Source of the DNA: Gemmatimonadota bacterium | GTDB taxonomy: Bacteria > Gemmatimonadota > Gemmatimonadetes > Gemmatimonadales > Gemmatimonadaceae | DNA: 64,000 bases | Assembly: GCA_021298835.1 (NCBI GenBank) | Contig: JAJTHG010000038.1 | Coordinates: 1 to 64,000 of the forward strand | Direction: 5' to 3' | Shown here: one piece after another, positions 1 to 25,266 of the stretch | Layout of the letters: each line of letters opens with the position of its first letter | Position numbering within the stretch: position 1 is the first letter of the stretch | Program-made: the position numbers and the translations under genes | Notes under the pieces: model-generated | What the model was told of the DNA's origin: nothing | Seen by the model: only the letters and a program-made list of their open reading frames with translations | Database searches by the model: none

Positions 1-681
1 GACCGCCTCGGCGTCGCGGGCGGCCGCCGCCGCCCGGGCCGCCGCCGCGGCGAGCGCCCGGGCCGCCGCCTCGTGGCGGGCCTGCGCCGAGCGCCACTCG
101 TCGTCGAGCACGTCGGGGTCGCGCATCGCGGTGCGAATCCCCGCGACCTCGCTCGCGATCGCCTTGCGGCGCTCGCGCACCAGTCCCTGCGCCGCGCGCA
201 GCCGCTCGTAGCCGAGCACGCGCGAGAGGAACTGCCCGCGCTCGGCCGGCGTGAGCGCGGCCATCACGTCGAGTTCCTTCTGGCCGGTGAAGTAGGTGTG
301 GAAGAACTCCTCGCGCGTCATCCCGAGCCGCCGCTGCAGCAACTCGGTGACGCCGGTGAGCGAGTTCGCGATCGGGACATCGCCGCCGTCGAGGAAGACC
401 TCGGCGCTGGTGAGCCCCCGCACCACGCGGTACCGATGGCCGCCCAGCTCGAACTCGAGCTCGACCTTCACCGCGGCGCGCCCGCCGGCCCGGAGCCAGC
501 GGATGGACTCGCGCGTCCCCCGCGCCGCCGCGTTGCCGTAGAGGGCCCAGGCGATCGCCTCGAGGATCGTGGACTTGCCGCTGCCGTTGGCACCGATGAT
601 GCCCGTCAGCCCGGCGTCGAAGGTCACCGTGGAGTCGGCGTGCTGGCGGAAGTTCTGCATCCGCAGCGCGTGCAGTCTCAT
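1..681 (-). CDS. sbcC: SbcC/Rad50-like SMC-type ATPase, N-terminal part (runs off the left edge)
   Basis: This is the first 227 codons of an SbcC/Rad50-family ATPase; the rest lies beyond position 1. The protein starts MRLHALRMQNFRQH and has a clear Walker A motif GANGSGKST at residues 30-38, followed by the ATPase lobe. Toward the visible end it becomes Ala/Arg/Glu-rich, consistent with the start of the long coiled coil of this family. The family partners with SbcD/Mre11 to process DNA ends and hairpins in an ATP-dependent way. The ATG at 681 overlaps the TGA of the upstream sbcD-like gene by 4 bases (ATGA), so the two are probably translationally coupled. Whether it is closer to bacterial SbcC or archaeal Rad50 needs the missing zinc-hook region. 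The call as an SMC-type ATPase is firm. Confidence 0.9.
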   Translation of the reverse strand, partial: MRLHALRMQNFRQHADSTVTFDAGLTGIIGANGSGKSTILEAIAWALYGNAAARGTRESIRWLRAGGRAAVKVELEFELGGHRYRVVRGLTSAEVFLDGGDVPIANSLTGVTELLQRRLGMTREEFFHTYFTGQKELDVMAALTPAERGQFLSRVLGYERLRAAQGLVRERRKAIASEVAGIRTAMRDPDVLDDEWRSAQARHEAAARALAAAAARAAAAARDAEAV

Positions 682-1889
682 CGCACCGCGCCCTCGTCGG
701 TGCCGGCCGCCATCCCGGCATCGCCGGACGCGTCGGCGGCGGCGGTGAGGTAGCCGAGCGCGAGCTGCACGAGGCGATCGCGCTCGAGGCCCGGCTCGAG
801 GGGTCGTGCCAGCAGCGCGTCGGCGACGAGGTCGGCGAGGGCGCGGCGCCGCCGTCCGCCGGGCGCCCCCTCTCCCGCCCCCGGGCGCACGAGCTCCGGC
901 TTCCGCGCGTCGAGCTGGAAGTGCAGCGCCTCGGCCTTCCACGCGCGCATCGCCTTGTGGTCCAGCTCGCGCAGCACGTGGCGCGGCACGTCGCGGGCCA
1001 CGAGCCGCACGACCTTCCCCGCGATCCCCCCCGGGCACGCGGTGACCGCGGCCGCGATCGCCGCGTCGAGCTCGGCCGCGGACAGCCCGCGCGCCTCGAT
1101 CGGCGGCAGGTCCACGAGCGCGCGCGGTGCCGGCACCGCGTGGAAGCGATGCGCCCGGCTGTCGAGGTCGTGCTCGATGAACCCCTTGCCCGGCAGGCGC
1201 GCGGCGCGCTCCTCCCGCAGCTCCCCCCAGGGGTTGGCGCTCGCGTACTCCAGGGCCCCGGAGTACCACGCGTTGGGCGCGACCTGCCGGTACACGTGGT
1301 AGTGCCCGAGCGCGATGTAGTCCCAGCCGCCGGCGACGAGCGACTCGGTCGTCCACGTGGCGGCGGCGCGGTCGTCCGCCGCCGCGTGCACCGGTACGAC
1401 GCCCTCGACCTCGCCGTGCAGCAGCAGCACGTTGCGACGGACGCCCGGTTCGGGGGTGAGCGCCGGCCGGTCGCCCGTGTCCGGCACGGCGAGCACGGCG
1501 AGATCGCGCTCGGGGAACACGAAGCGCTCGGCGACGCGGTCGGCGACGTGGATCCCGAGCGGCGCGAAGAGCCGGAGGATGCAGCCGGTCTCGGCGGCAC
1601 GCGGCGTATCGTGGTTCCCGGCGACCATCACGACGATCGCCCCGGGCAGCGCCTGCCGGAGGCGCGAGAGCTGCAGGTAGGCGTGGATGATCGCCGGGTT
1701 GCTCGGCCGGACGACGTGGAAGATGTCGCCGCCGAAGAGCACGAGGTCGGGGGCGAGCGCGATCACCTGGTCGATCGCACGCTTGAAGGCCTGCGCGACG
1801 TCGGCCTCGCGCTGGTTGATCCCGCCCGGCGTGAGTCGCGCGTAGCGGCGGAAGCCCAGGTGGAGGTCGGACAGGTGAACGAGGCGCAC
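678..1889 (-). CDS. sbcD: SbcD/Mre11-like DNA repair exonuclease subunit
   Basis: This calcineurin-type metallophosphoesterase of 403 residues has the full Mre11/SbcD metal-binding set: SDLHLG (D8, H10), GGDIFH (D55), GNHD (92-94), HGE (H158) and GHYH (195-198). Family members are Mn-dependent nucleases that work with the SbcC/Rad50 ATPase on double-strand ends. The chosen start is the GTG at 1889, because the first metal motif begins only seven codons later. A longer open frame continues upstream but only by running antiphase through the herA-like gene. The GTG lies 2 bases after the stop of that gene, and the stop overlaps the start of the SbcC-like gene, giving a tight herA-sbcD-sbcC operon. 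Confidence 0.93.
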   Translation of the reverse strand: MRLVHLSDLHLGFRRYARLTPGGINQREADVAQAFKRAIDQVIALAPDLVLFGGDIFHVVRPSNPAIIHAYLQLSRLRQALPGAIVVMVAGNHDTPRAAETGCILRLFAPLGIHVADRVAERFVFPERDLAVLAVPDTGDRPALTPEPGVRRNVLLLHGEVEGVVPVHAAADDRAAATWTTESLVAGGWDYIALGHYHVYRQVAPNAWYSGALEYASANPWGELREERAARLPGKGFIEHDLDSRAHRFHAVPAPRALVDLPPIEARGLSAAELDAAIAAAVTACPGGIAGKVVRLVARDVPRHVLRELDHKAMRAWKAEALHFQLDARKPELVRPGAGEGAPGGRRRRALADLVADALLARPLEPGLERDRLVQLALGYLTAAADASGDAGMAAGTDEGAVR

Positions 1890-1891
1890 GT

Positions 1892-3862
1892 TCAGCCGCC
1901 CACGCCGTAGGGATCGTCGGCGGGCCCCGCCTGCACGGGGAGGCGACCCTCGGGCCGCGCGGCCGCCTTCACCTTGCGCCCCAGCCGCGACTGGAGGAAC
2001 GCCCGGGGATCCTCCGGCCGCGCGAGCTCGGTCTGCCGCAGCGCCTTGAGCACTTCGCGCTCGTCGTGCAGCGCGAGCAGGTCCTGCACGTAGGGGAGCG
2101 TCGTGGCCGGCTCGAGCGCCCGGAGGCGCGCGAAGACCGCCCGGTCGAGCTCGGCGTCCTGCTCGCGCGGATAGCGCGTGGCCCCGTCGCGGCCGCGCAG
2201 CACCGCCGGCCGCGGGAACTTCACGAAGACGGGCTGGGTGAAGTGCGGGTGCCGCACCATGAGCTGCCCCTTCTCGAGCGCGGAGAGCTTGGTGCGGATC
2301 GCGGGGCTCAGCGTCGCGTAGCCCGGCGCGGCGAGCTCGTCGGCGTCCATGCGGCCGAAGAGCGACGTCCCCGCGTTGCCGACCACGCGCCGATGCACCT
2401 GCGAACGGAACTGCTGCGCCCCGAAGAGCACGAGCCCGAGGTAGCGGCCGCGCTCGGCGACGTCGAGCAGCATCTGGCGCACGTAGGTGTCCGGCCCGTC
2501 GGACGGCGCGTACTTGTTGAGCTCGTCCACGAAGACGATCACGTGGTCCACGCCGAGCGCGCGCCGCTCGAGCTGCTCGCGCAGGCGCGAGACGATCCGG
2601 GCGAAGACGAGGTCCTGCGCGTCCTCCTCGAGGTTGGCGACGTCCACGACGTACACCGTGCGGTCGTCGAAGCCGCCCTCGAACGGCAGGTCGCTCGAGG
2701 TCCCGTCGTCGGTGACCAGCCCCGCGCAGCGCGTCGCGATGTTCACCAGACGGTTGCGGACCTTGCGGATCGTCGCGACGTGGTGCGTCCGCCAGGTCTG
2801 GTCGTCCTGCTGCTCGAGGGCCCGCAGGATGTCCTTGAACCAGTCGTCGAGCTCGGCGAACGAGCGCACCGTGTGCGCCCGGGACAGCCGCGCGTCGGTG
2901 AAGGGCCGCTCGACGACCTGCTCGCGGATGAAGTCGATCAGCGCGTCCGCCTTGGCGTCCACGTCGTCCTTGTTGAGCAGCACCTCCGCGTACTGCAGCA
3001 CCTCGGTGAGCCCCCACGTGAGCGGCGCGACGTTGTGCAGGAGCGCCGGGTGGGCGCGCGCCGTGTTGAGCACGCCGCCGCGCGCGGTGTAGGGGGCGAA
3101 GTAGCGCACGCGCGCGAACGGCTCGGCCGGCACCTCGAGCGCCGCGTACAGCGCCCGGTCGGCGTCGTCGAGCTCGCCGGGCAGGTCGAGGAAGCAGAGG
3201 TCCGGGCCCTTCACGTTGAAGCACACCGCCGCGACGCGCCCCTTCGCCGCCGGGAAGTGCGCGAAGATCGCCTGCAGCAGGAACTCGACCGCGCTCGTCT
3301 TCGTCGCCAGCCCCGAGACGCCGGTGATCGTGCAGTGCGCCGCCTCGGGCCCGAGCAGGAACTCCGCGTCGAGGTGGATCGGCGCCTGCATGCCCCCTGC
3401 CGTGTACACGCCGACGGGGATCCCCGTGCGCGCGCCGTCGCGCAGGTAGCCGTCCATCCGCAGCGCCACGGCCACGTCGGCGTCCGTCGCAAGGAACACC
3501 TCGCCCATCGGCACCGGCTGCATCGGTTCGTCCGGCACCTGCCGCAGCACCGCGGCGGTGTAGAGCCGGATCTCCGCGCGCCGCGTCGGCGCCTCCCCGC
3601 CCCGCGCCGGCGAGCCGTCGGCACCGAGCACGTCGTGCAGCGGCGACTCGAGGTCGGTGTAGCCCAGCGCCTCGGTGATGACGCCGTAGATGACCGGCAC
3701 GTGCCCCGCCACCGGATGTGTGCCGTGGACGCGCACGATCGTGCCGATCCCCACCGGGGCCTCGACCGCCGTCCAGAAGTGGAACTGGTGCGGCGTGTTG
3801 GGGCGCTTCTCGGTGGCGACGACGCGGCCAAGCACGGCCGGGACGGGCGCGGAATCGGACAT
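1892..3862 (-). CDS. HerA-type ATPase (DUF87 family) in an SbcCD operon
   Basis: A 656-residue RecA/FtsK-superfamily ATPase of the HerA type. Seen directly: an N-terminal beta-rich region (about 1-160) like the HAS-barrel domain, a Walker A variant GVSGLATKTS (181-190, K188), a Walker B strand VIVFVDELNKYAP (from 441), and the downstream QFRSQVHRRVVGNAGT segment, where HerA proteins place the sensor and arginine residues. HerA hexamers translocate on double-stranded DNA and drive the NurA nuclease during end resection; some bacterial relatives work in anti-phage defence. Here the gene lies directly upstream of sbcD and sbcC and downstream of a NurA-like gene, which favours the resection role. 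A candidate -10 (TAGCTT on the minus strand, 3899-3904) lies 36 bases before the ATG, so the gene may also have its own promoter. Confidence 0.88.
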   Translation of the reverse strand: MSDSAPVPAVLGRVVATEKRPNTPHQFHFWTAVEAPVGIGTIVRVHGTHPVAGHVPVIYGVITEALGYTDLESPLHDVLGADGSPARGGEAPTRRAEIRLYTAAVLRQVPDEPMQPVPMGEVFLATDADVAVALRMDGYLRDGARTGIPVGVYTAGGMQAPIHLDAEFLLGPEAAHCTITGVSGLATKTSAVEFLLQAIFAHFPAAKGRVAAVCFNVKGPDLCFLDLPGELDDADRALYAALEVPAEPFARVRYFAPYTARGGVLNTARAHPALLHNVAPLTWGLTEVLQYAEVLLNKDDVDAKADALIDFIREQVVERPFTDARLSRAHTVRSFAELDDWFKDILRALEQQDDQTWRTHHVATIRKVRNRLVNIATRCAGLVTDDGTSSDLPFEGGFDDRTVYVVDVANLEEDAQDLVFARIVSRLREQLERRALGVDHVIVFVDELNKYAPSDGPDTYVRQMLLDVAERGRYLGLVLFGAQQFRSQVHRRVVGNAGTSLFGRMDADELAAPGYATLSPAIRTKLSALEKGQLMVRHPHFTQPVFVKFPRPAVLRGRDGATRYPREQDAELDRAVFARLRALEPATTLPYVQDLLALHDEREVLKALRQTELARPEDPRAFLQSRLGRKVKAAARPEGRLPVQAGPADDPYGVGG

Positions 3863-3932
3863 CGGGGCAGGCGCGGGGAGGACGGGTTCGCCCCGGGAAA
3901 GCTACCGCGGCGGGGCCCCCCGAGGGGGCGCG

Positions 3933-4898
3933 TCAGCCCATCACCGCCCGCAGGACCTCCTCGCAGTCGCGGATGCCGTACGCCATGACCGGCCAGCGCG
4001 GGTCGGGGAGCGCCAACGGGGCCGCTTCGGCGAGGACCATCCGCGTCAGCCGGTCGGCGCGGGCGGTGAAGGCGGCCGGCGGCTCGCCGTCGGGCAGCGC
4101 GGCCTCGAGCCGCACGAGGCCGAAGAGCGGGTCGCGCCCGCGCGCGTCGTGCCGGCGCGCGTACCAGCTGGCGACGGCGGTGCGGCGGGCGCTCGTCACC
4201 CGCACGGCGGTCGTACGCTCGCCGACGGCCAGGCCGGCCAGGAGCCCGAGCGCGTCGGACGGGACGTACAGCGACCGATGGGTCTTCACGACTCCCAGTA
4301 CGTCAAGCGACCGCGCCACCCGCTCGGCCTTGGGGAGCCCCCCGTCCACGTACAGCACCCCGGCCGGCGCCGCCACCCACGCATCGGCCAAGGAGCGCTC
4401 GAGGTCCTCGCGCGCCTCCTGCACGGCGTGGTAGGCCCGGTCGTGCCACGCGAAGGGATGCACGTCGCCGATCGCCTCCCCGTCGGCCAGATCGGTGAGC
4501 GGCTGCGCGGCCTGCAGCGCGCTCCAGAGACCGGGCGGGATCGCCGGTCGCGGGGCCCACAGACCCGCGCGCATGCGCAGCCCGCCCGGCCAGGTGACGA
4601 GCCGACGGTCGCTGCGCTGGCGCACCACGGCACCCACGTGCCCCCAGACGATCGGCACGAGCCCCGCGTGCGCGACGACGCGACTCTCCTGACGGCCGTC
4701 GAGGAACGCCGACACCAGCGCGCCGTCGGCGGGCCCCGCGGCGCGCACGCGCAGCACGTCGGATTCGAGGGCTTCGGCCGGCACGAGCCGCGGTGGCTCG
4801 GCGGAGGCGTCACGCTGCAGCTCCAGTGGCCGGCCGGTGGCGTCGGGATGAGCCCCGGCCGCCTCGCAGGCGCGGCGCGCGGCATGGAAGCCGTTCAC
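3933..4898 (-). CDS. NurA-like nuclease (probable)
   Basis: A 321-residue protein I read as a NurA-family nuclease (RNase H-like fold). The support is the motif pattern: an early acidic motif FLDGRQ (D67), a mid-protein helix with QEAREDLER, and then VLYVDGGL followed by LGVVKTHRSLYV. This resembles the NurA pattern of hydrophobic-Asp-Gly-x-Leu and then a Gly-x-x-Lys-Ser/Thr segment. The C-terminus has an aromatic/acidic helix (MAYGIRDCEEVL) where NurA carries its last active-site residues, but the usual histidine is not obvious. The start is GTG at 4898. It lies 70 bases upstream of the HerA-like gene on the same strand, which is the expected neighbour. The motif reading is mine and no alignment was run, so the family call is likely rather than certain. 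Confidence 0.6.
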   Translation of the reverse strand: MNGFHAARRACEAAGAHPDATGRPLELQRDASAEPPRLVPAEALESDVLRVRAAGPADGALVSAFLDGRQESRVVAHAGLVPIVWGHVGAVVRQRSDRRLVTWPGGLRMRAGLWAPRPAIPPGLWSALQAAQPLTDLADGEAIGDVHPFAWHDRAYHAVQEAREDLERSLADAWVAAPAGVLYVDGGLPKAERVARSLDVLGVVKTHRSLYVPSDALGLLAGLAVGERTTAVRVTSARRTAVASWYARRHDARGRDPLFGLVRLEAALPDGEPPAAFTARADRLTRMVLAEAAPLALPDPRWPVMAYGIRDCEEVLRAVMG

Positions 4899-4980
4899 GC
4901 GGCGCCGGGTCCCGGCGGTCCGGGGGCGACGACCGCCGGACGGTAGCGGGAGTCGGCCAGTACCGGGACGAGCGACGGGT

Positions 4981-5478
4981 TCACGAGCCCTCCGGGCACG
5001 GGGGAACGTTCAGCAGCCAGACGCCCGCAAAGCTACCGGTGTGGTCGAGGTCGATGCAGACGTCGCGCGCCTCGCGTACCGTCCGCGTGACGCGCCGGCC
5101 CGCGACGCGCAGCCGCACGAGGCCGCGGTCCGGGGCCACTTCGGCCACCAGCGTCGTCGCCAGCGCGCGCACCGCGCCGGCGGCCGCAAGGCGGCGCCAC
5201 GACAGCGTCACCGGTTCGACCACCGGCGCCACCAACGTGGGGACGACGCGCACCGCAGGCCACACGACCACGTCCACGCCGGTCAGCCGGTCGCCGGCCA
5301 GTTCGAGCGTGACCCATGCGCCGTCGCGGCCGGCGAGCGCGAACTGCGCGGAAGGTGCCGATGCCGGCACGGGGTGGGCGATGCGGGCCGCGAGGATGCC
5401 AGTGGCGCGGTCCCAGCGGAAGTCCACGGGGACATCGGCGAGCGGGGCGGTTCGGACGCGGGCAACGGCGACGGACAT
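4981..5478 (-). CDS. Conserved-looking protein of unknown function upstream of the nurA/herA/sbcCD genes
   Basis: A 165-residue soluble protein without signal peptide or membrane segment. I do not recognise the family. It has a beta-rich N-terminal half with alternating hydrophobics, and it ends in a segment (DVCIDLDHTGSFAGVWLLNV) whose Asp-x-x-Gly-x-hydrophobic-Gly pattern recalls the DUF2283-type ending, though that is weak. It is on the same strand as, and 82 bases upstream of, the NurA-like gene, so it may be the first gene of the end-resection operon. Codon use matches its neighbours. The ATG at 5478 is the only early ATG. Function cannot be assigned. Confidence 0.6.
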   Translation of the reverse strand: MSVAVARVRTAPLADVPVDFRWDRATGILAARIAHPVPASAPSAQFALAGRDGAWVTLELAGDRLTGVDVVVWPAVRVVPTLVAPVVEPVTLSWRRLAAAGAVRALATTLVAEVAPDRGLVRLRVAGRRVTRTVREARDVCIDLDHTGSFAGVWLLNVPPCPEGS

Positions 5479-5580: not shown

Positions 5581-6792
5581 TCAGCGCCCCGTCAGCGCGC
5601 GCCAGTGCGCGACGAGCCGGCGTACGCCCTCGACGACCTGCGCCTGCGGCGCGGCGTACGACATGCGCACCCATCCCGGCGCGAGGAAGGCCGAGCCCGG
5701 CACGACGGCCACGCCCCGCTCCTCGAGCAGCGTGCGCGCGAAATGGTCGCCGTCCCCGTGGGCACCACCGACCTCGAAGAAGAGGTAGAAGGCCCCCGTC
5801 GGCGGCACCACAGCGGGCGCGGGGCCCTCGGCGAGTACCGCGAGGCAGGCGTCGCGGCGCGCGCGGAACTCGTCCACCATGTGCCGCACCGCCTGCTCGA
5901 TCGCCACCCCGCCGCGCACCGCCGCCAGCGCGGCGTGCTGCGAGACGGCCGCGGGGTTGGAGGTGGTGTGCGACTGGAACGCCGCCATCGCCGCCGCGAC
6001 GGGGCGCGGGGCGATCGCCCAGCCGATCCGCCAGCCGGTCATCGCCCACGCCTTCGCGACCCCGTCCACGACGACGAGCCGGTCGCGCGAGGGTGCCACC
6101 GCCAGCGCCGACGTCGCGGTCCCTTCGTAGGCGATCTGCGCGTAGATCTCGTCGGCGATCACCCACCACCCGCGCTCCTCCGCGAGCGCGAGCAGGTCGC
6201 GCAGCTCGTGGAGGGTGTACGTCGCGCCGGTGGGATTGCTGGGCGAGTTGAGCAGCAGGCCCCTGGTCGCCGGCGTGGCCGCCGCCGCGACGTGCGCCGC
6301 GGTCGCCTTGAGGCCGTTCGCCGGATCGCCAATGACGGGCACGACGTTCGCGCGCGCCAGGGCCACCATCTCGTAGTAGCTCGTCCACGCCGGCGACGGC
6401 ACCAGAACGTCGTCCCCGGCGCCGAAGAGGACGTAGATCGCATTGAACAGCGACTGCTTCGCCCCGTTCGAGACCACGACCTCGGCGGCCGCGACCGGCA
6501 GCCGTCCCGCGCTCTCGCGCGTGGCCCGCTCGGCGATCGCCTCGCGCAGCGGCAGGATGCCCTCGGTCGCGGTGTACTTCGTGGCGCCCGCGTCGATCGC
6601 CGCCTTCGCCGCCTCGACGATCGGCGCCGGCGTCGGGAAGTCCGGCTCGCCCACGCCGAGGTCGATCACGTCGCGCCCCTGCGCCTTGAGGGCCTTCGCG
6701 CGCGCGGAGACGGCGATCGTCGCCGATTCCCGCAGGAACGCGACGTTGGAGGAGGGCGCGAACGGCTGGGCCGCGGGCGGGGAAGCGGTCAT
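5581..6792 (-). CDS. aspC: Pyridoxal-phosphate aspartate aminotransferase, class I subgroup Ib
   Basis: A full-length 403-residue fold-type I aminotransferase. Visible landmarks are GVGEPDFPTP (46-55), the substrate/PLP region NSPSNPTGA (182-190), IADEIYAQIAYEG (Asp214, Tyr217) and the Schiff-base lysine in VAKAWAMTGWRIGW (K247). The pattern matches subgroup Ib enzymes, which transfer amino groups between aspartate and 2-oxoglutarate and sometimes accept prephenate. It has no obvious operon partner; the nearest same-strand gene downstream is the unknown gene at 4981-5478, 102 bases away. The last codons and stop lie in a tandem 11-base duplication (5570-5591). The exact substrate is not determined by sequence. 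Confidence 0.93.
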   Translation of the reverse strand: MTASPPAAQPFAPSSNVAFLRESATIAVSARAKALKAQGRDVIDLGVGEPDFPTPAPIVEAAKAAIDAGATKYTATEGILPLREAIAERATRESAGRLPVAAAEVVVSNGAKQSLFNAIYVLFGAGDDVLVPSPAWTSYYEMVALARANVVPVIGDPANGLKATAAHVAAAATPATRGLLLNSPSNPTGATYTLHELRDLLALAEERGWWVIADEIYAQIAYEGTATSALAVAPSRDRLVVVDGVAKAWAMTGWRIGWAIAPRPVAAAMAAFQSHTTSNPAAVSQHAALAAVRGGVAIEQAVRHMVDEFRARRDACLAVLAEGPAPAVVPPTGAFYLFFEVGGAHGDGDHFARTLLEERGVAVVPGSAFLAPGWVRMSYAAPQAQVVEGVRRLVAHWRALTGR

Positions 6793-6919
6793 CGCTGGGC
6801 GGGCGGGAGGGCGGCGGGGACGCTAGGTTTCGCGCACGACGTGCGACCGGTGCGTCGCTGCGAAAGCTACGCCTCCCCGGCGGCGCCCGCCAATTCCGCT
6901 TTTTTCCCGACGATTTCCG

Positions 6920-8422
6920 TTGTCTGCCGAACCGACGGCCGCGCGCGCGGCCCACGTCCTCCACGAGCGCCCGACCGACCCGGCGCTCGTCCTCGACCTC
7001 CTCTCGGCCGCCTCGGCGCGCCTCGACGCCGAGGCGCCCGGCCCGCAGGTCCTCGTGGTCGTGCCCGATGCCGACGCCGCGCTCGCGGTGGCGGATCTCG
7101 CCCGCGACGTCCCCGCCGCCCGAGGCCTGTTGCCCGTCACGAGCGTCAAGCGCGCGCTGCGCCTGCTGCCGTCGGCACCGGCGATCGTCGTCGGCGGACT
7201 CGCCGATCTCGGCGAACTCCTGCGTCGGTCGGCGCTCAAGCTCGAGCGCATCGGCCAGGTGATCGTGCTCGAGGCGGAGCGGCTCGATGCCGAGGCGGGG
7301 CTGGCGACGCTCGACGCGCTGCTGGCCGAGCTGCCCAAGGACGCGACGCGTACCGTCGTCGCGGCAACGGTGTCGGACGCCGTCCGTGACCTTGCCGAGC
7401 GGCACCTGCACCGCGCGCGGCGGCTCGCGGCGCCGGCCGCCGGCGGCGCGGTGCCGCCGTCGCTGCAGGTGCTCGTGGCGACGCCGGCGACGCGCGCCGG
7501 CGCGCTCGCGCGGCTGCTCGACGACCTCGATCCTCCCTCGGTGACGATCGTCGCCGACCGCGCGGCCGACCGCGACGCCGCGGCCGACGCGGTGGCCCGG
7601 CTCGGACTGCCCCCCGCGCTCGCCTCCGTGGTCGGGGCGACGGGCACGGTGCCGGAGCACGTCGCCGTCGCGGTCCTGTGGGGGATCCCCTCGGCGCGCG
7701 CCCTCGCCGCGGTCGCGGCGGCGCAACCGGCGCGCGTGGTCGCGATCGTCGGCGCGCGCGAGCGCCACGCGCTGGCGGCCGCCGCGTCCGGCGCGGGGCT
7801 CGTCCCGTACGTGCCCGCGGAGTCGTCGCGCGCGGTGCGCGCCGCCGATGCCCGCCTCCGGTCCGCGCTGCGCGAGGAACTCGCGCGCGGCACGCCGCTC
7901 CGCGAACTCGGCGCGATCGAACCGCTGTTCGACCACTTCGAGCCGGCCGACGTCGCGGCCGCGGCGGTGCGCCTGCTCGACGCGGCACGGGCGACGCTGG
8001 CCGCCGCGAAGGCCGCGCCGCCCCCCGCCGTGGCGACGGCGGTCCCCGCGGTGCCGCCGGCCCGAGAGACCGGCGCGCCGACGAGCGATCGGCCGCGTGA
8101 CCGCGGCGGGGACCGCAGCGCAGCCCGCGGCGGGGACCGCAGCGCAGCCCGCGGCGGGGACCGCGGCGCTGCTCGCGGCGCTGCTCGCGGCGGGGACCGC
8201 GGCGGGTCCCGGGGCCCGCGCGACGCCAAGCCGCCGTTCCGCGGCGGTGCCAAGCGCCCGGCGACCGGTGGTGCACGCGGCCGCGACGCGGCCATGCGCG
8301 ACGGACCGAAGGGCTTCGGCCGCGGACGTCCCCCGCGTGGTCCGGAGGAAGGGGGCCCGCGCAAGGACTGGCAGGACCGCGGCGAGCGGCTGCGCAACGC
8401 CAAGCGGCGGCGCGACACATGA
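6920..8422 (+). CDS. Degenerate DEAD-box-like protein with an RG-rich tail
   Basis: A 500-residue protein whose layout follows a DEAD-box RNA helicase but whose catalytic motifs are missing. Around residues 45-170 a RecA-like lobe is recognisable. The stretch [20 protein letters not shown] sits where helicases have LVLDEADRML, and [14 protein letters not shown] sits where they have the SAT motif. I see no Walker A P-loop, no DEAD and no HRIGR motif. A second lobe follows (about 180-330), and a segment [17 protein letters not shown] near 345 resembles the region after the helicase core. The last 120 residues are basic, RG/GD-rich and partly encoded by 24-base tandem repeats, typical of RNA-binding tails. 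The start codon is an uncertain TTG at 6920. It overlaps tdk by 4 bases. It is probably a non-catalytic RNA-binding paralogue. Confidence 0.65.
8102..8209 (+). repeat. 24-bp in-frame tandem repeat in the RG-rich tail
   Basis: Two exact 24-base copies (8102-8125, 8126-8149) are followed by two diverged copies (8150-8173, 8186-8209) with a half unit between them. Each unit is a whole number of codons and encodes Arg-Gly-Gly-Asp-Arg-type octapeptides, so copy-number change would keep the frame. Confidence 0.85.
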
Positions 8423-9075
8423 TGGGCGCGCCGTTCCAGCCGACCGGCGGATGGATCGAGGTGATCGCGGGCGTGATGTTCAGCGGCAAGTCCGAGGAAC
8501 TCATGCGGCGCGTCCGCCGCGCCGTCATCGCCCGCAAGCGCGTGCAGGTCTTCAAGTCGCACCTCGACGCGCGCTACTCGGGGCTCTTCGCGGTCTCGTC
8601 GCACGACGGTCGCTCGATCGAGGCCATCCCGGTGGACTCGGCCGAGCAGGTGGCGCAGCGACTCGACCCGACGGCACAGGTCGTGGCGGTGGACGAGGCG
8701 CAGTTCCTCGACGAGGGCATCGCGGACCTCGCCTCGGCGCTCGCCGACCGCGGCCGGCGGGTGATCCTCGCGGGGATCGACACCGACTTCCGCGGCGAAC
8801 CCTTCGGCATCATGCCGCGCCTGATGGCCCAGGCGGAGATGGTGGACAAGCTGCACGCGATCTGCGTGCTGTGCGGGGCACCCGCGAGCCGCAACCAGCG
8901 CCTGATCGCGGGACGGCCGGCGGCGTGGGATTCCCCCACGATCATGGTCGGCGGCACCGAGTCGTACGAGGCGCGGTGCCGGGCCTGTCACGTCGTGCCC
9001 CGCGAGGACGCCGCGCAGGCCGTGCTGCCGTTCGGCCTGACGTCGGCCGACGGGGTGAAGATCTCCGGCCGCTAG
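8419..9075 (+). CDS. tdk: Thymidine kinase, type II
   Basis: This salvage enzyme phosphorylates thymidine to dTMP. The 218-residue protein has the P-loop GVMFSGKS (18-25), the catalytic glutamate in VAVDEAQF (E93), the [10 protein letters not shown] loop (about 121-130) and the zinc-binding lasso pairs CVLC (C149, C152) and CRAC (C187, C190). Length and order match bacterial type II thymidine kinases. The ATG at 8419 overlaps the stop of the degenerate DEAD-box gene (ATGA). A second ATG follows at once at 8422, so the true start may be one codon later. Coupling to an RNA-helicase-like gene is odd but gives no clear functional hint. Confidence 0.95.
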
Positions 9076-25028: not shown

Positions 25029-25266
25029 CGTCGGAACGCTCCTCGAGGACGGTCGGACTGCCGGACTGCCTATCGGTTACACGGCGGACGCCGTTCCCGC
25101 CAGAGGGCGATGCCGCGCCCCTGCCTCGGCATATCGGCCGATCGGTGCCGGAGTTCCAGCACGGCACGCCCCCCCGGCCGGCGGGGTAAGATGAAAACCG
25201 CCGCGCGGTGGCGGGGGGTCGCCGCAGGCCGGTAGCTTTGAGAGTTCTTTCCTCCCGTCCCCTTCC
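25029..25266. promoter_or_regulatory. Divergent intergenic region upstream of the glycosyltransferase operon
   Basis: This 238-base gap separates the unknown minus-strand gene from the plus-strand GT2 operon. It contains TAGCTT at 25233-25238, a hexamer also found upstream of herA (minus strand, 3899-3904) and of aspC (minus strand, 6864-6869), so it is my best -10 candidate. A weaker TAAGAT is at 25187-25192. No convincing -35 box or RNA structure was found. Confidence 0.35.

Follow-up and report, generated by a model that had tools for sequence, protein, structure and literature searches.

Genes and catalytic motifs of the nurA-herA-mre11-rad50 locus

The locus described here lies in a 64,000-nucleotide stretch of a Gemmatimonadaceae genome (contig JAJTHG010000038.1, positions 1 to 64,000; hereafter, the window), whose first base is the start of contig C73 in a draft assembly of 82 contigs (3.46 Mb, 91.6% complete). 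A previous sequence-only reading had recognized in it an archaeal-style, complete end-resection machine (NurA, HerA, Mre11 and Rad50) with a fifth, unrecognized protein, here called X. All five open reading frames were recovered with the same boundaries, on the minus strand: X (4981-5478), nurA (3933-4898), herA (1892-3862), mre11/sbcD (678-1889, with a GTG start) and rad50 (1-681). The genes are separated by 82 nt (X-nurA), 70 nt (nurA-herA) and 2 nt (herA-mre11), with an ATGA overlap between mre11 and rad50. The GC content at third codon positions (GC3) of the five frames is 0.89-0.97, and both GC and GC3 match those of the adjoining genes. The four-gene set in a high-GC bacterium is thus real, with intact catalytic motifs; as to completeness, all four genes exist, but the rad50 of the window is cut after 227 codons and continues on another contig (C43).

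The herA product, a predicted hexameric DNA translocase, matches the HerA of Deinococcus radiodurans (7f6d_B) with an E value of 2.6e-42 by sequence and 4.7e-58 by profile, whereas no archaeal HerA structure was matched in either search, and a Pfam search gave no match. Its P-loop (SGLATKTS) has the same unusual form, SG(L/V)ATKTS, as that of D. radiodurans (SGVATKTS). The Walker A K188 aligns with K175 of the D. radiodurans protein (drHerA) and the Walker B D446/E447 with D487/E488, and these three residues are invariant across 22 homologues; in drHerA, mutations at K175 or D487/E488 impair ATPase activity and resection (PMC9960219). As judged by sequence, the protein belongs to the bacterial (Deinococcus) type of the FtsK-HerA superfamily, and "archaeal-style" does not describe its type.

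For NurA, a predicted RNase H-like nuclease, the single sequence matched 7f6d_H (E 2e-4), meaning that HerA and NurA alike match chains of one solved complex, the HerA-NurA of D. radiodurans (7f6d). The structural search that the sequence-only reading had proposed for this protein was run with an AlphaFold model (pLDDT 93) and returned the NurA of D. radiodurans (Foldseek E 1.4e-13), TM1739 of Thermotoga maritima (5e-10) and the NurA of Sulfolobus solfataricus (9e-6); apart from these three, no fold, related or not, was found at E below 0.001. The Pfam NurA model PF09376 did not match the window protein and matched only one of 30 homologues (E 5.9e-4), but this model is a search aid, and the absence of a match is not decisive for NurA fold or function. 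Among 149 homologues, each of the residues D67, E167, D185 and K205 is retained in 141-148. From its motif position, D67 would be equivalent to D53 of the D. radiodurans protein (drNurA), and K205 aligns with drNurA K201, which is required for cleavage (PMC9960219).

Mre11 was identified by PF00149 (E 3e-10), by the NCBIfam Mre11/SbcD models and by Mre11 structures (E 1.7e-11), and its calcineurin-like phosphodiesterase motifs are readable (SDLHLG, GGDIF, GNHD, LHGE, GHYH). Rad50 is incomplete in the window because the first base of the window is the contig start. The N-terminal part present there matches PF13476 (E 6.3e-21) and a Rad50 model (7e-27) and carries the Walker A GANGSGKST, and the remaining 561 codons (G000:C43:3-1688) encode a CPTC zinc hook, an SGGEED signature and a Walker B LVLDEVFGSLD; this is a split ABC ATPase with a CxxC zinc hook, its halves lying on separate contigs of the same draft genome. 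A gene for a GNAT acetyltransferase (L171:1688-2656, on G000:C43) starts at the stop codon of rad50 (TGATG); the sequence-only reading could not have seen this gene, as it lies beyond the contig end. On a contig of 3.4 kb, the host also encodes a second Mre11/SbcD-like protein (G000:C36:2126-3229, L194) with 33% identity to the Mre11 query; a search for a second Rad50 in the host found none.

The nurA-herA pair in Gemmatimonadota

The distribution of the genes was followed in a phylum sample of 298 genomes, 102 of them from the host family, and in a set of 59 relatives; gene neighborhoods were counted in 80 named loci, 56 of which had enough upstream and 45 enough downstream sequence. HerA was found in 188 and NurA in 169 genomes of the phylum sample. 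Within Gemmatimonadaceae, 85 genomes have both, 17 have neither and none has a single one. Among the relatives, HerA is present in 46 of 59 and Mre11 in all 59. In the named loci, NurA lies upstream of HerA in 54 of 56, an AsnC-like gene in 46 of 56 and X in 21 of 56, and Mre11, Rad50 and GNAT follow downstream in 45 of 45, although these counts do not represent independent events, since the loci were chosen by HerA similarity inside one phylum. Of the two genes placed upstream of herA by the sequence-only reading, nurA is therefore a regular companion and X is not. In relatives, a DUF6263-like gene is often inserted between herA and mre11; the host has none there.

The four genes are adjacent, co-oriented and kept together in relatives, and conservation of the nurA-herA locus extends through two families of the order; nurA and herA can, however, be absent as a pair. 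Relatives without HerA and NurA (within L184-L197) keep, as far as their contigs reach, the order thymidine kinase, DEAD-like gene, aminotransferase, X and/or AsnC, mre11, rad50 and GNAT, with nurA-herA alone missing, and genomes of this kind are dispersed among several genera, part of g22 being an example. Given that the surrounding order is intact where the pair is absent, nurA-herA can be described as a two-gene cassette carried on an otherwise constant backbone of mre11, rad50 and GNAT, with the backbone as the core that is always present and the pair as an optional addition. What look to be cultured species stand on both sides, probably Gemmatirosa kalamazoonensis with the pair and Gemmatimonas aurantiaca T-27 without it. 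Over all loci of the two families, the gene distances of HerA correlate with those of Mre11 (r 0.86) and of the aminotransferase (r 0.85), consistent with mostly vertical descent; within Gemmatimonadaceae alone the distance correlations range from about 0 to 0.75 and are too weak to interpret. As for other phyla, the best 80 loci of the HerA scan were all from Gemmatimonadota or unlabelled. In family f5 of the same phylum, two loci (L172:3776-10471 and L183:75-6758) hold a second, Deinococcus-like HerA (7f6d_B, E 1.4e-154) and a NurA (3.7e-19) in a different order, herA-mre11-rad50-nurA.

Gene X and the conserved flanks

X belongs to a real, conserved family, of which 24 homologues were aligned; 15 of them match DUF2283 (PF10049, best E 1.6e-5), with the window protein itself falling short of a match. 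Its predicted structure is all-beta and gave a single fold match, the CdiI immunity protein 7vmc_C (E 2.9e-6, TM 0.69, 10% identity), from which no function is implied. The sequence-only reading had suggested that X could be a new accessory factor, and one could imagine a dedicated role in the NurA-HerA complex, as fifth subunit or as regulator, for a conserved gene next to nurA, on the same strand, that is present in 32 of the 46 relatives with HerA. However, X is also present in 10 of the 13 relatives that lack HerA and NurA, including all seven of family f3, it adjoins the aminotransferase gene and mre11 even where nurA-herA is missing, and it was not found in 35 of the 56 named loci with upstream sequence. 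As X is as common without HerA as with it, we discarded it as a NurA-HerA accessory; it is probably a neighbor that stands outside the NurA-HerA machine, and a dedicated role in the complex is very unlikely. By its presence at 45 of 45 loci, GNAT is the better accessory candidate; it occurs after rad50 in HerA-less genomes too and is a possible regulator of Mre11-Rad50.

Upstream of X, the conserved neighbor is a class I/II aminotransferase gene (5581-6792, minus strand; PF00155, E 9.9e-69), followed by two conserved genes on the plus strand, divergent from the nurA-herA-mre11-rad50 genes: a DEAD-like gene (6920-8422) and the thymidine kinase gene that it overlaps (8419-9075). The DEAD-like protein (500 aa) is conserved and has weak similarity to DEAD helicases and a repetitive arginine-glycine-rich C-terminal tail. 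The sequence GTAGCTTT occurs four times in the window, versus 0.11 expected, at 3898-3905, 5029-5036 and 6863-6870 (minus strand) and at 25232-25239 (plus strand). Of these copies, one precedes herA by 43 nt, another precedes the aminotransferase gene by 78 nt and a third falls inside the 3' part of X; the sequence is rare at the corresponding places in relatives. It is possibly a promoter element of the phylum, and the herA-proximal copy could serve as an internal promoter.

A probable DNA-end processing module and its alternatives

Taken together, the identification of the four proteins with intact catalytic residues, the invariable pairing of NurA with HerA in the host family and the constant linkage to mre11-rad50-GNAT make it probable that Gemmatimonadaceae have here their own form of the bacterial NurA-HerA plus Mre11-Rad50 module for DNA-end processing. 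Judging from homology, its role is most likely the resection of DNA double-strand breaks. Mre11-Rad50 would bind the broken end and trim it, a HerA hexamer would then thread onto the end and pump the duplex into a NurA dimer, and NurA would cut mainly the 5' strand, leaving a 3' tail for RecA. The expected duplex pumping, 5' strand cutting and 3' tail come from drHerA-drNurA biochemistry (PMC9960219), and complex formation, strand polarity and a recombination role are likewise extrapolated from D. radiodurans and archaeal biochemistry. The nuclease domain of RecB/AddAB/AdnAB type (PF12705) had no match in the host, which is no proof of absence in a genome that is 91.6% complete; RecJ and RecQ are present. 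We also considered whether NurA-HerA is complementary to RecBCD/AddAB/AdnAB, but no such pattern was seen, with PF12705 in 18 of the 46 relatives with HerA and in 7 of the 13 without.

Several observations weigh against a resection module. In work cited by PMC9960219, nurA or herA mutants of D. radiodurans and Thermus are described as having modest effects or even improved DNA-damage resistance, and a 2026 study of Thermococcus kodakarensis HerA-NurA questions a role in resection (PMC12977600). In addition, 17 of the 102 Gemmatimonadaceae manage without the pair. In the sister family f2, 8 of the 64 genomes with HerA have no detectable NurA (56 have it), as in L067, L071, L072 and L073, where HerA is near mre11-rad50 and no NurA was found alongside. 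Furthermore, the sampled NurAs of genus g35 (f2) mostly lack the first catalytic Asp: in L059, L061 and L198-L200 (g35), as well as in L063 (g43, also f2), Asn, Ala or Gly takes the place of window D67, with most other positions conserved. By these sequences, NurA was probably lost or catalytically decayed in f2 while HerA was kept, and thus HerA may act there without the NurA nuclease. This is accommodated by a more tentative proposal, possible though on balance rather doubtful, in which break resection in Gemmatimonadaceae is built on the constant Mre11-Rad50 core, regulated by its own translationally coupled GNAT, the two genes nurA and herA serve as a booster that is acquired or lost jointly, and the f2 HerA with a dead or missing NurA implies a NurA-independent HerA function with Mre11-Rad50.

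The presence or absence of nurA-herA as a unit would also fit an optional defense or clean-up cassette beside Mre11-Rad50, that is, a DNA-end-dependent degradation engine clearing foreign (phage, plasmid) or damaged DNA. Archaeal HerA-NurA is reported to cleave predominantly double strands, an antiviral role has been proposed for it, and in bacterial defense HerA pairs with other nucleases (PMC12977600). Unlike typical mobile defense genes, though, the pair sits in almost every carrier at a fixed chromosomal position beside housekeeping genes, and HerA distances track those of its neighbors, as given above for Mre11 and the aminotransferase. The PADLOC match for HerA was weak (7.7e-9), and there was none for NurA. 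Moreover, known HerA-nuclease defense systems have HerA beside SIR2, DUF4297 or another effector in a defense island, whereas here its partner is NurA and the neighborhood consists of conserved housekeeping genes, so we consider this explanation unlikely. A recent transfer of the complete four-gene operon from archaea, for which the gene set and order reported for archaea and the best Rad50 scores, obtained with archaeal Rad50 models, could be cited, is highly improbable: HerA and NurA both belong to the bacterial (Deinococcus) type, the GC and GC3 values agree with those of the adjoining genes and the locus is shared across two families of the order. Furthermore, mre11 is universal in relatives and nurA-herA is patchy, and therefore the four genes do not travel as one block.

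Among the closest known systems, the end-processing module that we favor resembles the HerA-NurA of D. radiodurans (PDB 7F6D, 7WRW, 7WRX), by sequence for HerA, by fold for NurA, and by the shared P-loop and conserved K201. It differs in that the predicted operon continues with mre11 and rad50, in that NurA similarity is only 22% and in that the HerA chain solved there is ~40 residues shorter than the host HerA. With the archaeal operon (Sulfolobus, Pyrococcus, Thermococcus) it shares the four clustered gene families, but no archaeal HerA structure was matched by sequence, the S. solfataricus NurA was reached by fold alone (E 9e-6), the host is a bacterium and its operon adds a GNAT gene. Nor is such a set as exceptional in bacteria as the sequence-only reading had assumed: the pair is known in Deinococcus-Thermus, and the order nurA-herA-sbcD-sbcC is already published for Oceanithermus profundus, a bacterial NurA-HerA followed by SbcD (Mre11) and SbcC (Rad50), in another phylum and with no GNAT gene mentioned in the passage on the cluster (PMC5448004).

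No relevant open-access paper turned up in a literature search for HerA, NurA and Gemmatimonad*. The bacterial NurA-HerA, described for Deinococcus-Thermus along with a Thermotoga NurA structure, is extended here to much of another phylum, and this extension comes with Mre11-Rad50 in one locus. Least expected were the clean cassette behavior, the constant GNAT partner and the retention of HerA in f2 with loss or probable decay of NurA. As the pair is naturally present or absent on a constant mre11-rad50 background, Gemmatimonadota would offer a clean test of the disputed role of NurA-HerA in bacteria.

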